Below are positions 32,972-39,730 of a DNA stretch of 41,324 bases, piece by piece. The stretch's first letter is position 1. Every line of letters begins with the position of its first letter. This DNA is from Comamonadaceae bacterium (GTDB lineage: Bacteria; Pseudomonadota; Gammaproteobacteria; Burkholderiales; Burkholderiaceae_C): NCBI GenBank assembly GCA_947450675.1, contig CANFWI010000028.1:1-41324 (forward strand), read 5' to 3'. Both the position numbers and the translations under genes were made by a program. Below the pieces are notes generated by a model. That model saw only the letters and a program-made list of their open reading frames with translations. It did not search any database and was not told the DNA's origin.

Positions 32972-33391
32972 TCAAACCTCAATCAGTTCGGTTTTCAGGC
33001 CCAGCGCCTCGGCAGCTTGCGCTTGCCGGCGGTCAGCCGTGACAAAAAGGTCAACGCGCGCCGCGCGAGCGGCGCCAATGTGCAACGCATCGGTGGCGCG
33101 CAGCCGGCAGCTTTCCATGGCTTGAGCAGCATGCGCCTCGACCCGACCATCCAGCGCCACCAGCGTGAAATCGGCAAAGTCGTCTTGCACGATGCGCATG
33201 ATGCGGGCGTAGTCATCAGCACTCACCAACCCGTCATGGCGCTGGCGGTTCAACGCCGAGGCAATCTCGGTCTTGCAGTGGGCGGCCACCACCAGCTCAC
33301 TCGCGCGCTCGCCTGCGGCCATCACCTGCGCCCGTCCGGGCTCGGCGCTGTAGCGCTTGTAGAGCGCGGAGGTGTCCATCAAGATGCGCAT
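32972..33391 (-). CDS. vapC: PIN-domain ribonuclease toxin, VapC type
   Basis: 139 residues from ATG 33391. PIN-domain acidic residues are all present: Asp6 in MRILMDTSAL, Glu42 in CKTEIASALN, Asp101 in RATDALHIGAA and Asp120 in LFVTADRRQA. VapC toxins cleave tRNA or rRNA when freed from the antitoxin. The ATG overlaps the antitoxin stop by one base (TGATG), the usual coupling of type II systems. An earlier in-frame TTG and GTG at 33397 and 33394 add two residues at most. The stop lies 3 nt before mnmG, and the last codons carry the mnmG ribosome site. Confidence 0.9.
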   Translation of the reverse strand: MRILMDTSALYKRYSAEPGRAQVMAAGERASELVVAAHCKTEIASALNRQRHDGLVSADDYARIMRIVQDDFADFTLVALDGRVEAHAAQAMESCRLRATDALHIGAARAARVDLFVTADRRQAQAAEALGLKTELIEV

Positions 33392-33636
33392 CACCAACCC
33401 GCCTCACGCTCTTCAACAATCAACTGAGCGCCCGTCTTGCCGTCTGGCCTCGTGATGTGCAGCGGCTCAATCACCCGCTTCCAGCTGGGCACACGAGGCG
33501 TCACGTCACTACTCACCGGCACCAACTCAGCCACGGGTTTGCCGTGCCGCAAGATGCGCACGGTCTCGCCGCGCTCGACCAGATCAATCATGGCCGAAGC
33601 GTTCGCACGAAATTCACTCAAAGGGATGGTTTGCAT
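33391..33636 (-). CDS. vapB: Antitoxin of the Phd/YefM family (VapB role)
   Basis: 81 residues. The N-terminal Phd/YefM DNA-binding domain is clear: MQTIPLSEFRANASAMIDLV, then ERGETVRILRHGKPVAELVP. The C-terminal part, ending EEREAGW, would wrap the PIN toxin and block its active site. It precedes the toxin with one-base overlap. Antitoxins of this family repress their own promoter, and two copies of a TTTGTACA motif lie just upstream of the start. By sequence it is Phd-type rather than AbrB- or RHH-type VapB, so the vap name reflects the toxin partner. Confidence 0.9.
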   Translation of the reverse strand: MQTIPLSEFRANASAMIDLVERGETVRILRHGKPVAELVPVSSDVTPRVPSWKRVIEPLHITRPDGKTGAQLIVEEREAGW

Positions 33637-35027: not shown

Positions 35028-35831
35028 CTACTTGCGAACGGCCGGCACTTCGAGGGGCAAACCATCGCCCCGCCACATCAGATACAGGCTGAGCTGGCGG
35101 GCCTCCAGCGCACCCCACGCGAGGGGTTCGGCACGCACACCCACAAAGCAGCTGCGCAAACGCCGCTCCAGAGACCCCATGCCCTGCCATTCAAGCCGAT
35201 AGACTGGATACGCGTTGGGCTGACCTTGGCTCAGGAGATCCGTGAACAAACGCTTGCCTTGATTCTGATCGTGGCAGTTGGCGCAAGACAAATTCAACTG
35301 CCCCTGCCGCTTGAAAAAAAGCGACTCACCTTGCGCCCAATGGGACTGCGCCGCGCCACTGATGTCCACGCGGATGGGTATGGCGTTTGACGCTTGGCTC
35401 ACATACAGGCTGAGCGCTAACAAATCATCCGACTCCCATGTCAGCTCCGGCCCCCGCTGGCGCAAAGTCCGGCACTGACGAATCCGGTCTTCAAGATTGA
35501 GAAGCTGCCCCGTCTTGAGATCCAGTGACGGGTAGCGCGTCGCAACGCCGCGCATGCGCTGCGGGGCCTCTCCGTGGCAGCTTTGGCAGCTTTTGCCCTC
35601 GACGCCGAGGGCTTCTCGCCAGCGCTGTTCACCACGGGACAACCACAGCTGTGCCGGGTTGCCAAAGTCATCGGCTTGCAATGCGCGCACATCAGCACCC
35701 GCAAATGCCAAGCCGGACTTGATCTGCAGCAGCGGCAAATGACGTGTCTGGGAATTTACGGACGGCGCCAATACCATCAGCCCAATGCTGAGCGCCAACA
35801 ACAGCACGCGCGATGAAAATCGGCTGATCAC
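35028..35831 (-). CDS. soxA: Sulfur oxidation c-type cytochrome SoxA
   Basis: 267 residues with an N-terminal signal (VLLLALSIGLMVLAPSVNS). SoxAX joins thiosulfate or another sulfur species to the carrier SoxYZ in the periplasm. Two heme-binding motifs are present, CQSCH (82-86) and CANCH (183-187), and the active-site Cys228 in RRLRSC is kept, followed by VRAEPLAWGALEARQLSLYL as in the family. Thus it appears to be an intact diheme SoxA. GTG start overlapping the soxZ stop (GTGA). It is the last gene of the ior-sox operon; soxB, which usually follows soxA in soxXYZAB clusters, is absent and the next gene is a convergent thiolase. Confidence 0.95.
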   Translation of the reverse strand: MISRFSSRVLLLALSIGLMVLAPSVNSQTRHLPLLQIKSGLAFAGADVRALQADDFGNPAQLWLSRGEQRWREALGVEGKSCQSCHGEAPQRMRGVATRYPSLDLKTGQLLNLEDRIRQCRTLRQRGPELTWESDDLLALSLYVSQASNAIPIRVDISGAAQSHWAQGESLFFKRQGQLNLSCANCHDQNQGKRLFTDLLSQGQPNAYPVYRLEWQGMGSLERRLRSCFVGVRAEPLAWGALEARQLSLYLMWRGDGLPLEVPAVRK

Positions 35832-36160
35832 GACGCAGGCGGCAGCACGGTCACACTTTGCCGCAACTCGCCGGTGACGCCGCGTTCATCGATCCACTGC
35901 ACCCACAGCTCGCCAGACTCACCTGCGCGAAAGTAAAACTCAAACAAGGGATTACCGGCCATACCCGACGATGGTTCAACCTTGAACACCTGCTGCCCAG
36001 CGTAGTCACAGGTCAGCCAAACAATCACATTGCGGGGTATCAACTGGCCCCGCAAGTCTTGCAAATAGCCGCTGTCCATCGGGTGTTGAATCAACAAGCG
36101 CGCCTTGACAACGTCACCACGGACGATGCGGGCGGGAAGCTGCAAACGGGCATTGCTCAT
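35828..36160 (-). CDS. soxZ: Thiosulfate carrier subunit SoxZ
   Basis: 110 residues, the usual SoxZ length, no signal peptide; it would be exported bound to SoxY. Family features: VKARLLIQHPMDSGYLQDL near the N-terminus, IPRNVIVWLTCDYAG, a GMAGNPLFEFYFRA loop and the C-terminal GELWVQWIDERGVTGE. Its ATG abuts the soxY stop (TGA immediately followed by ATG), and its own stop overlaps soxA. The protein is somewhat divergent from well-known SoxZ sequences but keeps length and order of motifs. Confidence 0.92.
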   Translation of the reverse strand: MSNARLQLPARIVRGDVVKARLLIQHPMDSGYLQDLRGQLIPRNVIVWLTCDYAGQQVFKVEPSSGMAGNPLFEFYFRAGESGELWVQWIDERGVTGELRQSVTVLPPAS

Positions 36161-36670
36161 TCAAGTGCCGTCCACACAAGCTGACTCTGTAACGATCACA
36201 TCCACGCTCTGGTAGCGAAAACTGCCATCGGACGAACGCGCCAGCGCCACCACCATTTGAGAGCCCGCCAGCCGAATACGCGAACTCACTTCTGCGCGAC
36301 CGGACCCGGGTCCAAGATGAAAAACGGCCATCTGCGTGGCGGGGTTTCGCTGCGACAAAAGATAAATGTGCGTGACGTGCGCCTCTGGCGTCATCGGGCT
36401 TTCTACCTGCACCGATACCGGCACCAAGTAGCCGTTGTCAGCCAAAACCGGCAACACCAACTTGACGCCCTGCGGCAACGCCACGCGGCCATTCAACAGC
36501 GGTGCCAACATCTCGTCAAGGCTGAGTAAATGACCGGAGATCATGCCTTGTGAACGGGCCGGCAACACGCTCAAAGCCAGCGTCGCCAAGACACCACGGA
36601 CAAATTGCTGCAACCAACGGCGGCGCTTTTGCGGCACGGTCAACGGACCAACGTCTCCCGCGCCACTCAC
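36161..36670 (-). CDS. soxY: Thiosulfate carrier subunit SoxY, divergent C-terminus
   Basis: 169 residues from a GTG that overlaps the soxX stop. A twin-arginine signal is seen in KRRRWLQQF (15-23) followed by a hydrophobic stretch and PARS, as expected for Tat-exported SoxYZ. The Ig-like carrier domain follows (LPQGVKLVLPVLADNGYLVP, VTHIYLLSQRNPATQMAVF, then RYQSVDVIVTESAC). Canonical SoxY ends in GGCGG, with the substrate-carrying Cys on a flexible arm. Here the end is ACVDGT: a Cys (165) is kept at the tip, but the Gly arm is missing and two extra residues follow. Active, altered or degenerate function cannot be told from sequence. Confidence 0.88.
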   Translation of the reverse strand: MSGAGDVGPLTVPQKRRRWLQQFVRGVLATLALSVLPARSQGMISGHLLSLDEMLAPLLNGRVALPQGVKLVLPVLADNGYLVPVSVQVESPMTPEAHVTHIYLLSQRNPATQMAVFHLGPGSGRAEVSSRIRLAGSQMVVALARSSDGSFRYQSVDVIVTESACVDGT

Positions 36671-37122
36671 GGCCGGCGACTTCCGAGATGAGCCGCAGGC
36701 GATTGATCGCGCAGCAGATAGGCCACGATGTCTTCAAGCGCTTGGCCAGACAGCACCGTCTGACCGACATATGCCGCGGCAACACGCTGCAAGCCTTGCG
36801 TGCTGAAGTAAGCCGGCATCACCGTGCCAGGATTCAAGAGCCGCGGGTCCGCGATGCGCTGACGAATCTGCTCTGCGTCAGCGCGTTCAGCCAGCCCAAG
36901 CAAGGAAGGGCCGATGTCACCGCCGCCGCCCAAACCGGGCACCACGTGGCACAACACACAACCGCTGTCTTGCCGGTTGCTGAGCAACGCACGGCCTCTC
37001 TCAACACTGGCCGAGGCCGTCCAAACGTTAGCAGGCAGGCGATCTTGCGCCAAGGCAGGCAAGGTGCACAAACCCAGCATCGCCCAAGCCAGCAAAGTAC
37101 GACGCCTAGCAGTCAGACTCAT
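36667..37122 (-). CDS. soxX: Sulfur oxidation c-type cytochrome SoxX
   Basis: 151 residues from ATG 37122 with a signal peptide (LLAWAMLGLCTLPALAQ). One heme motif, CVLCH (55-59), a GDIGPSLLGLAERADAEQIR segment and the Met ligand in GTVMPAYF (Met102), then ALEDIVAYLLRDQ near the end: the SoxX pattern throughout, distinguishing it from a generic electron-transfer cytochrome. It pairs with SoxA, four genes away in the same operon. Its start overlaps the stop of the molybdenum-hydroxylase large subunit (ATGA), which rules out an earlier in-frame start, and its stop overlaps soxY. Confidence 0.93.
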   Translation of the reverse strand: MSLTARRRTLLAWAMLGLCTLPALAQDRLPANVWTASASVERGRALLSNRQDSGCVLCHVVPGLGGGGDIGPSLLGLAERADAEQIRQRIADPRLLNPGTVMPAYFSTQGLQRVAAAYVGQTVLSGQALEDIVAYLLRDQSPAAHLGSRRP

Positions 37123-39275
37123 GCACGCGCCAAACTCAAGCCGTGGTTTTTCAGCGGCAAAGAACGAATCCGTTTGCCAGAGGCCGCAAAAATGGCATTG
37201 GCCAACGCCGGCGCCAACGGTGCCTGTGCCGGCTCGCCAACGCCGCCCCAAAAACCTCCGGTAGGCGCAATGACCGCCTGTACTTTGGGCATTTCATTCA
37301 GCCGCATGAGGCGGTAGTCATGAAAGTTCGATTGCTCGATGCGACCGTCCTTGAGCGTCATCTCGCCCCAGAAAATAGCGCTCAAACCATGCACCACACT
37401 GCCCTGAATTTGCGCCTCAATGTTGTCAGGATTGACCACATAGCCCGGATCGATCCCCATGACCACGCGGTGAATCTTGACTTCACCCTTGGCGCTGACA
37501 GAGACTTCACAAACGCACGCTGTGTAGCTGCCGTAGCCTTCGGTTTCAGCGATGCCGCGAAACACACCCTTGGGCAACGGAGTCCCCCAGTTGGCGGCTT
37601 TGGCGACGGCTTGCAAAATACTCCCGTCACGCGGCGATTTTTCGCCCAGCAAGCTCAGCCTGAACGCCAAGGGGTCCTTGCCAGCGGCATGCGCGAGCTC
37701 GTCAATAAAGCTCTCGCGCATGTAGGGATTTTGCGAATGCCCTACCGTGCGCCAAAAACCCACGGGCACGTTGGTGTTTCGCTGAGCGTAGTCGACCAGG
37801 CTGTTTGGAATATCGTACGGATGGTCTTGCAACGCAGCGACCGCCTGACCGTCAACGCCCTTCGGCAATGGCAGTTTGAGCAGCGTGGCCAAAAGCGAGG
37901 GCGCGCTCACACGGATGTGCAACGCATCGACCTTGCCACTGGCGTCCATCGCCGCCTTGAAACGCACTAGGCTGGCGGGACGGTACAAGTCGTGCTGAAT
38001 ATCTTCTTCACGACTCCAAATCATCTTCACCGGCTTACCCGCCATGGCCTTTGCAATCATCACACCCTGACGTGTGAAATCTTGAGGGCTCTTGCGGCCC
38101 AAGCCGCCACCCAACTGCATCGGATAAACCATCACCTTGTCTTGCGGTACACCCGCTGTCGCGGCAGAAACCGCCAGCGTTGCTTCCGGATTTTGCGTCG
38201 AGGTCCAAACCTCCAATTTGTCGCCCTGCAACCAAGCGGTGCAGACCATCGGCTCCATCGTGGCGTGCGCAAGATAAGGCGTGAAGTACTCGGCCTCATA
38301 GACCTTGCTGGCGCCAGCCAGCGCTTGCATGGTGTTGCCATCATTGCGCGCCACGGCCACATCGGGCTGGTCCATACCCGCTTGGAAGTGGGTCATGATG
38401 GCCGTATTGTTGAGGGTGCCGTGCTCGCCGGTGTCCCAATCAATCACCACTTCACGCAAAGCCTCTTTGGCGCGCCACCAGTTGTCGGCCACCACCGCGA
38501 CAAACCCACCCAAGTTGAGCACCTTGACGATTCCGCGGCGGCTTTCCACCTTTGACGCATCCATGGACTTGACGCGTCCGTTGAACACCGGACAGGCCGC
38601 CACGGCGGCATACAACATACCCGGCAATTGCGCATCAATACCGTAGCGAATCTTGCCGGTCACGATGTCGGGAATATCAACGCGCGCGATCGGCTTGCCA
38701 ACAATTTTCCAGTCTTTGGGGTCTTTGAGCTGAACCTCTTTAGGCGCTTCTTGCAGCGCCGCAGCGGCGGCCAACTTGCCGTAACTCAGCGATCGCTTGC
38801 TGGCCAAATGATGCACCTTACCGAGCGCTGTGCTGCATTGACTGGCCGGCACGCCCCAGCTTTGCGCCGCTGCCGCCACCAACATATGCCGTGCAGTGCC
38901 ACCCGCTTGACGGAGGTAAGCCTGCGAATTGCGAATGGTTCGGCTGCCAACGGAAGCCATGTCGCCGTAAACGCGTTTTTGACGCAGATTCTCGTGCGCT
39001 GTGGCGTATTCAACGCGAACATTTTTCCAGTCGGCATCCAGCTCTTCAGCCACCAACATGGGGGCCGAAGTTCGGCTGCCTTGCCCCATTTCAGCGCGGG
39101 CATAACGGATGATGATGGTCTCGTCAGGCTGAATCTCGATCCATGCATTCAACTTTGGCGTGTCGGCGGCCTGGGCGCGCTCAGGCAGGTAAAAAGCCAA
39201 ACTCAAACCAGCAGCGGCGGAAGCCGATACCTGCAAAAAATGACGACGCGCAGGGGACGTGACGAGCGGGTTCAT
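37119..39275 (-). CDS. iorB: Molybdenum hydroxylase large subunit (xanthine dehydrogenase family, IorB-like)
   Basis: 718 residues from ATG 39275, which has AAAGGAG about 8 nt upstream. A Tat signal is at the N-terminus ([20 protein letters not shown]), so the mature enzyme is periplasmic. Molybdenum-cofactor regions: [53 protein letters not shown], and the C-terminal [19 protein letters not shown] holding the catalytic Glu. Relatives (IorB, periplasmic aldehyde oxidoreductases) oxidise N-heteroaromatics or aldehydes and pass electrons to cytochrome c. Substrate unknown. Start and stop both overlap neighbours (iorA and soxX), tying it to the sox genes. Confidence 0.92.
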
Positions 39276-39730
39276 GCGCGGACTCCTTTGGCTGCAACAG
39301 CGTGAATCGCCTTGCGGATACGGGCATAGGTGCCGCAGCGGCAAATGTTCGTCATGGCCGCGTCAATGTCCTCGTCAGTGGGCTTCGGCTTCTTTTTCAG
39401 CAAAGCCACGGCCGCCAAAATTTGACCCCCCTGGCAATAACCACATTGCGGCACCTGATGGTCAACCCAGGCTTGTTGTACGGGATGCAGCTTGCCCTTA
39501 GACGCCAAACCCTCAATCGTCATCACCTGCTGACCGGCAGCAGCGGAAACCGGGTAAGAGCAAGAGCGCACCGGCTCTCCATTGAGCAGTACCGTACAAG
39601 CGCCACATTGCGCCACACCACAGCCGAACTTCGGACCCTTGATGTCGAGCTCATCGCGCAAGGCCCACAACAAGGGCATGTCGGGTTCGACATCCAGCTC
39701 AAGCGGTTTTCCATTGACATTGAGTTTCAT
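39272..39730 (-). CDS. iorA: Molybdenum hydroxylase small subunit, two [2Fe-2S] clusters (IorA-like)
   Basis: 152 residues, exactly the usual size. The plant-type cluster ligands are Cys37, 42, 45 and 57 ([20 protein letters not shown]), and the second cluster is bound by Cys95, 98, 129 and 131 (CGYCQGGQ and NICRCGTY). It passes electrons from the molybdenum centre of the large subunit. It has no signal of its own and would be exported bound to the Tat-dependent large subunit. GGAG lies 8 nt before ATG 39730, which fixes the start despite an open frame further upstream. It is the first gene of the six-gene operon. No XdhC-like chaperone gene is seen nearby. Confidence 0.94.

Follow-up and report, generated by a model that had tools for sequence, protein, structure and literature searches.

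A bacterium with genes of the Sox system is usually assumed to oxidise thiosulfate. In the classical set, composed of SoxXA, SoxYZ, SoxB and SoxCD, SoxXA carries out an oxidative coupling to the arm cysteine of the SoxYZ carrier; molybdenum enzymes of the xanthine oxidase (XO) type, for their part, hydroxylate carbon. Here we describe an operon that joins genes of both kinds, iorA-iorB-soxX-soxY-soxZ-soxA, on a 41,324-nucleotide contig of a Comamonadaceae bacterium (the window; CANFWI010000028.1, contig C28 of the 97-contig assembly GCA_947450675.1). Comparison of this operon with its relatives, which are widespread in bacteria though seldom studied, leads us to conclude that it encodes a module separate from thiosulfate oxidation, a molybdenum hydroxylase coupled to a carrier, with a substrate and chemistry that we infer from sequence.

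The closest described system is the second sox cluster of Starkeya novella, soxX2Y2Z2A2F2, which lies with the XO-family molybdenum enzyme Snov_1975/1976 and, in the accessible part of the 2013 report, has no SoxB or SoxCD beside it (PMC3797975). As far as that text goes, the cluster is hardly expressed, thiosulfate included, and was treated as duplicate sox genes with no functional significance suggested, other growth conditions being allowed for. Like the window operon, it combines SoxXYZA with an XO-family molybdenum enzyme in a genome with a full sox cluster elsewhere. Its gene set, compared by the gene content given in the available text rather than by sequence, is that of the alphaproteobacterial modules discussed below, whereas the window form lacks soxF and the extra cytochrome. 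Thus the gene set is already known in one organism, and the SoxY type in an NCBI family, TIGR04487 (SoxY-related AACIE arm protein). In the open-access literature we found no paper treating the module as a conserved system or naming the rule for the SoxY arm given below, and 'AACIE' returned nothing relevant. Related arrangements in the accessible parts of other reports include PP_2677, a parallel in which a fused SoxYZ-like carrier lies beside pyrroloquinoline quinone dehydrogenases (PMC12997753), three sox clusters in Polynucleobacter (PMC3308952) and a flavocytochrome c beside SoxYZ in SAR324 (PMC4782131). The quinoprotein-dehydrogenase-associated carrier TIGR04557 likewise places a SoxYZ-type protein next to a periplasmic dehydrogenase, of another enzyme family; it is a fused SoxYZ, whereas the window genes are separate and score 52.2 (SoxY) and 47.4 (SoxZ) bits against its cut-off of 140.

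All six genes of the window operon were confirmed between 39730 and 35028 on the minus strand, in gene order as follows.

39272..39730, minus strand: iorA, small [2Fe-2S] subunit of 152 amino acids with Fer2 and Fer2_2 domains and an ATG start; its stop overlaps the iorB start (ATGA).
37119..39275, minus strand: iorB, XO-family molybdopterin large subunit of 718 amino acids with MoCoBD_1 and MoCoBD_2 domains.
37230..37253, minus strand: iorB codons 675-682, FWGGVGEP, the stretch at the catalytic Glu loop that marks the Sox-linked clade.
36667..37122, minus strand: soxX, monohaem c-type cytochrome of 151 amino acids with CxxCH and a conserved Met; TIGR04485, 62.2 bits (cut-off 61).
36161..36670, minus strand: soxY, sulfur-carrier subunit of 169 amino acids with a twin-arginine signal (R16 R17); PF13501, 92.7 bits (cut-off 28.4).
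36164..36184, minus strand: soxY arm codons 163-169, SACVDGT, standing where classical SoxY has GGCGG.
35828..36160, minus strand: soxZ, carrier partner of 110 amino acids; TIGR04490, 76.7 bits (cut-off 76).
35028..35831, minus strand: soxA, dihaem SoxA of 267 amino acids; TIGR04484, 212 bits (cut-off 110).

The sequence-only reading of this DNA had described six genes on one strand with every junction overlapping or abutting, and this holds: four junctions overlap (ATGA, ATGA and GTGA, then GTGA at soxZ/soxA) and one, soxY/soxZ, abuts as TGA|ATG. IorA contains two four-cysteine sets, read directly in the sequence, and IorB carries a twin-arginine signal (R10 R11) and Glu681 within a GEP motif; no signal peptide was seen in IorA (152 residues) or SoxZ (110 residues). 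Among the window open reading frames (ORFs), many of them named by eye, neither a flavin adenine dinucleotide (FAD) subunit gene nor a separate cytochrome gene belongs to the operon. The MoCoBD domains and GEP glutamate of IorB, the two-cluster [2Fe-2S] subunit encoded by a gene of its own and the lack of an FAD subunit show that the enzyme is of the XO-family IorAB type, whose members would hydroxylate isoquinoline or aldehydes. The AlphaFold2 model of IorB (pLDDT 83) finds its best solved-fold match in 8gy3_C (TM 0.86). SoxA retains both haem sites, C82/C85/H86 with C120 and C183/C186/H187 with the active-site C228, and matches solved SoxA proteins at E values of 1.5e-48 (2c1d_A) and 8.1e-48 (1h31_A).

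The long form of the operon, iorA-iorB-soxX-soxY-soxZ-soxA, recurs in 92 of 163 distinct loci, and for this reason we do not attribute the six-gene order to chance. A short form, iorA-iorB-soxY-soxZ without soxXA, was found at 31 loci, some on short contigs; 20 loci carry soxX-soxY-soxZ-soxA quartets with no iorAB on that strand within 7 kb, and 20 show other or truncated patterns, counts that are not random-sample frequencies because loci entered the set through their resemblance to SoxY or SoxA. The set of 163 includes the window, has duplicates removed and leaves out L084, L087, L089-L091, L235 and 20 control loci; the tblastn-based count replaced an earlier greedy picking of ORFs, which had given iorB at 57 of 80 loci. 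The six closest SoxY proteins outside this genome (L033-L038; same genus; arms ESACVDG[ST]) all lie in the same operon, complete in L034, L036 and L037 and cut by contig ends in the other three. A SoxA-based scan of named genomes recovered at least 80 loci, including those of Limnohabitans planktonicus, betaproteobacterium GR16-43, Oceanibaculum pacificum and Stella vacuolata, and SoxB was present at none of 80 among the matches listed (DNA up to 8 kb on each side, less on short contigs). The module is plasmid-borne in Methylobacterium, Neorhizobium galegae (where iorB appears as two tblastn pieces) and Roseomonas marmotae. The alphaproteobacterial modules that we read usually include, alongside soxXA, genes for a cytochrome c and a flavoprotein; the one flavoprotein scanned, that of L233, is of the FCSD type (PF21706, PF09242). 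Five loci titled Akkermansia, Bordetella or Klebsiella (L105, L119, L150, L162, L168) carry Burkholderiales-like modules, and these metagenome-assembled genome titles look wrong.

The chance that the genes are accidental neighbours with no shared function, the outcome by which the sequence-only reading would have been overturned, seems to us very slight. A sox cluster with SoxB does exist elsewhere in the genome, as an accident of placement would allow, yet the order is kept across Betaproteobacteria, Alphaproteobacteria and, by the titles of metagenome-assembled genomes, groups such as Rokuibacteriota. The module is real and conserved, and its genes go together.

In the flanks of 60 anchored loci, only TctC-type binding proteins recur widely (19 loci), and flanking genes were dropped as a hint to the substrate. 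FCSD-like flavoproteins occur at five anchored loci (L091 is not a module locus and in L042 the gene is on the other strand), bktB-like thiolases at eight (remote in L046 and L086) and mnmG at six (the window and the same genus). Both bktB and mnmG flank the same-genus operon where contigs reach, and in the window a PIN-domain toxin and Phd/YefM antitoxin pair (32972-33636, minus strand) lies between them. Short-form or cut modules lie near the TctC-type genes in L039, L043, L044, L059, L061 and L063.

The SoxY arm distinguishes this module from the classical system. The best NCBIfam match of the window SoxY is TIGR04487, at 129.9 bits and below the cut-off of 172, with the arm SACVDGT instead of AACIE; TIGR04488, true SoxY, gives 84.1 bits (cut-off 125). 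Three of seven other module-type SoxY proteins pass the TIGR04487 cut-off (L233, 226 bits; L048, 217; L141, 173), and L076, L043, L237 and L040 fall below it. When 190 distinct SoxY proteins were sorted by arm, all 26 beside SoxB had a GGC arm. In contrast, of 96 beside iorB and soxA, 94 had a Cys with an acidic residue at +2, two had AAC[LV]IG and none had GGC. Where iorB is present with no soxA in view, a group of 37 that mixes true short forms with cut contigs, 20 arms were acidic, 16 were of other types and one was GGC. SoxY proteins with soxA only had 19 acidic and four GGC arms, and those with neither iorB nor soxA had four GGC, three other and one acidic. Thus, in the loci read, GGC versus xxC with an acid at +2 separates SoxB-linked SoxY from SoxY of the six-gene form. 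SoxA beside iorB has kept its ligands, with C82, C85, H86, C183, C186 and H187 present in 97 of 97 and C120 and C228 each in 96 of 97. Around C228 it differs from 24 SoxB-linked SoxA proteins in residues of its own (E214, G219, R226, G231). The operon thus shares with classical Sox the SoxXA haem and active-site cysteine ligands, the SoxYZ pair and a twin-arginine SoxY, and differs from it in the lack of SoxB and SoxCD, in an arm that is not GGCGG and in a molybdenum enzyme of the XO rather than the sulfite oxidase family.

The absence of SoxB and SoxCD noted in the sequence-only reading stands for the window, where no ORF encodes them, but not for the genome. Contig C14 carries SoxB (TIGR04486, 857 bits) beside a SoxY ending in GGCGG (TIGR04488, 170 bits) and ORFs named by eye as SoxX, SoxA, SoxZ, SoxC and SoxD; because this is a classical cluster with SoxB, the window operon is an additional set. 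The SoxA on contig C14 is without the first haem site, with L and D at the C82 and H86 positions, whereas the window SoxA has both sites.

This comparison was extended to 399 genomes sampled from the order to which the window belongs, in a census that assigned SoxY to the TIGR04487 type at 110 bits or more. Such a SoxY was found in 67 genomes, and iorB lay within 7 kb of it in 64 (one locus read per genome); a GGC arm was seen in one of the 67 (L260, with iorB). Among 20 control loci of lower-scoring, classical-type SoxY (19 GGC arms and one GSC), iorB was present at none and soxB at 14. In 60 genomes, IorB above 600 bits and TIGR04487-type SoxY occurred together in 12 and were both absent from 47, with IorB alone in one and SoxY alone in none (Fisher p 9e-12, phylogeny not corrected); the IorB of the single exception (G081, L199) falls outside the Sox-linked clade described below. 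The TIGR04487 score alone was rejected as a marker for Alphaproteobacteria, where GGC-armed SoxY proteins reach 110-144 bits.

SoxB was present in 49 of the 67 module genomes, at E values of 1e-200 or better except in G429 (partial, 1e-98), and no convincing SoxB was found in the other 18, judged from per-genome rows as no match or a best E value no better than 8e-26 (67 and 18 are hand counts from search tables). A linked iorB is present in 17 of these 18 genomes, and for 13 of them the assembly reaches a completeness of 90 percent or more. Of the 18, then, most are well covered. Because it is found also in bacteria without detected SoxB, the module probably has a job other than the classical pathway, and these genomes, together with the different SoxY arm, bear out the earlier suggestion of a module distinct from classical thiosulfate oxidation.

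The 49 genomes with SoxB, this one included, and the retained SoxXA ligands would also fit a duplicate Sox core that feeds the SoxB and SoxCD of the same cell, with IorAB a neighbour with its own task. We consider such an isoenzyme improbable, given the 18 genomes without convincing SoxB, the SoxY without a GGC arm and the linked IorB that forms a clade of its own. The low expression of the Starkeya novella cluster, as described in the accessible text, also speaks against it (PMC3797975), as does the finding, in the part of the report available, that Bradyrhizobium diazoefficiens, which has two soxY genes, needs soxY1 but not soxY2 to oxidise thiosulfate (PMC5748708). The dispensable soxY2 may be a module-type SoxY, since in one alphaproteobacterial-type genome (G757; L234, L235) both arm types are represented, each by one SoxY.

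A tree of 106 IorB sequences, with near-copies removed, placed the Sox-linked proteins in a single clade of 86 (65 long form, 15 short form, two beside SoxX/A only and four unlinked; support 100, branch length 0.48). The comparison set was drawn from 20 chosen places among IorB matches outside the loci already gathered, of which L198 fell inside the clade, leaving outside it 19 unlinked IorB of the same order together with L113_1329, whose very long branch kept it out of the residue comparison. Trp676, in FWGGVGEP next to Glu681, is present in all 86 clade members and in none of the 19 outside, 95 percent of which have Pro. Other residues are likewise fixed in the clade and rare outside (86 vs 19): Asn362 and Glu364 beside Gln361, and Arg499-Asn500 before GFWR. 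From XO-family enzymes, we take the Gln361, GFWR and GEP-loop motifs to line the molybdenum site. Fifteen further IorB proteins, 12 of them beside soxY (L223, L224 and L226 are not), all show [GD]FWGG.GEP. With the IorAB and membrane aldehyde dehydrogenase (8gy3) branch, the window enzyme shares separate molybdenum and [2Fe-2S] subunits, the lack of an FAD-subunit gene and a twin-arginine signal; it differs in belonging to a separate clade, in having Trp676 where 8gy3_C aligns Pro and in a linkage to soxYZ and, for the most part, not to xdhC.

The genes near iorAB raise another possible role for the carrier, that SoxXA-charged SoxYZ, instead of the usual XdhC sulfurase, provides the sulfur with which the Mo=S ligand of exported IorB is made or restored. 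Among the 19 out-of-clade iorAB (L199-L217), 12 have XdhC and eight have MobA within 5 kb, compared with none of 103 SoxY-linked iorAB, a number that includes near-copies and leaves out L232-L239. This initially strong contrast was weakened by the alphaproteobacterial modules L237 and L238, in which an XdhC gene follows close behind soxA (an XdhC-MobA fusion by a domain scan in L237, named by eye in L238); because one clade is compared with the rest, it may also reflect lineage history. XdhC is also encoded in the window's own genome, on contigs C11 and C42, and we regard a role in maturation as quite improbable.

The sequence-only reading had offered SoxXA as the electron acceptor of the hydroxylase, in which case IorAB would be an ordinary periplasmic aldehyde or N-heterocycle dehydrogenase, with SoxXA only its cytochrome and SoxYZ carried along. 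The nearest solved relative of IorB is the membrane-bound aldehyde dehydrogenase of Gluconobacter, which we take to be cytochrome-coupled; in Sinorhizobium, iorAB genes that lack soxYZ are accompanied by a c-type cytochrome gene of their own, and the window operon has none separate from soxXA. However, this idea predicts that soxXA rather than soxYZ should stay with iorAB, and the 31 short-form loci show the opposite. In addition, the SoxA active-site cysteine is kept in 96 of 97 proteins, and alphaproteobacterial modules hold a separate cytochrome and soxXA together. SoxXA as simply an electron acceptor thus fits poorly, and we think it unlikely.

The constant pairing of IorAB with SoxYZ, joined by SoxXA in the long form and by a flavoprotein in Alphaproteobacteria, suggests that SoxYZ and IorAB are linked in function and that sulfane-level sulfur is handled. 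We propose that the module works as a carrier system complete in itself, located in the periplasm, with IorAB standing in for SoxB and SoxCD, an explanation to which, taken whole, we give a probability of roughly 0.45; given the known roles of SoxXA and XO-type enzymes, such a carrier cycle is the simplest scheme. SoxXA would oxidatively attach a sulfur compound of the thiol type to the re-tuned SoxYZ, at the cysteine of its SACxD arm. The arm would then offer the coupled substrate, or something formed from it, to the molybdenum site of IorAB for hydroxylation, with electrons leaving through the two [2Fe-2S] clusters to a c-type cytochrome, either SoxXA or the separate cytochrome where a module has one. 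Discharge of the carrier would proceed without SoxB, and in Alphaproteobacteria the sulfane sulfur left behind would probably pass to the flavocytochrome c (SoxF/FccB type) that the operon also encodes. The most likely class of substrate would be an organic sulfur compound rather than thiosulfate, close to the earlier suggestion that SoxYZ receives the sulfur of an organosulfur or aldehyde substrate. In a more specific version, which is speculative and on balance doubtful, SoxYZ would carry a carbon-bearing thiol on its arm as a mixed disulfide and IorAB would hydroxylate the carbon next to the sulfur with the thiol still bound to the carrier, freeing an aldehyde or acid and leaving a SoxY persulfide.

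Several observations weigh against a self-contained carrier system with IorAB at its centre. SoxB is present in most module genomes, three of the 67 lack iorB near SoxY (G278, on a 6-kb contig, G329 and G418), and the 20 quartets stand apart from iorAB. SoxY of the short form often lacks the acidic arm (16 of 37 other, one GGC). Four in-clade iorB genes with no soxY nearby have kept Trp676 (the second copy in L169, L175 of Sinorhizobium meliloti, L177 of Rhizobium sullae and L198), suggesting that IorAB, its active site included, may function where SoxYZ is not linked to it. In Starkeya novella, SoxAX and SoxYZ of the second cluster were undetected on the substrates tried, as far as the accessible text reports (PMC3797975). 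A desulfhydrase of ergothioneine breakdown, which might be IorAB-like, was considered as a lead to the substrate and dropped, as a search of open-access papers returned nothing relevant.

At 23 named loci iorB was out of view, and ten SACxD-type quartets among them were traced further; all ten genomes carry an iorB of 47-52 percent elsewhere (in G440 and G443 only as fragments at that level), and five of these distant iorB genes sit in a short-form iorAB-soxYZ. Other quartets and partial sets have neighbourhoods of their own. In L136, L144, L145 and L148, SACxD-type quartets have as neighbours a small cytochrome c, a dioxygenase of the TauD type and a SoxC-like enzyme of the sulfite oxidase family, domains that a scan confirmed in L136, possibly pointing to an exchange of partners or a link to sulfonates. 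Quartets with SACWD or SACYD arms occupy one conserved spot beside 2-oxoacid:ferredoxin-oxidoreductase-like genes (by eye) in L114, L124, L137, L138 and L141, and in L116 and L140 soxX directly overlaps soxA, with no soxYZ between, near acyl-CoA-synthetase-like genes (by eye).

These results bear on how sox genes are read. With a TIGR04487-type SoxY in 67 of 399 genomes, 18 of them without convincing SoxB, and an operon that often brings soxX, soxZ and soxA with it, calls of thiosulfate oxidation from sox genes can be wrong. If the mixed-disulfide reading is true, the module would represent a carrier-protein-based cycle of periplasmic organosulfur oxidation in which an XO-family enzyme acts on a protein-bound substrate, for which we know of no precedent. 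If the proposed mechanism is true, the Sox carrier would be a general periplasmic platform for mounting different oxidases, and finding the substrate of a large, unstudied clade of molybdenum hydroxylases would become a direct experiment.

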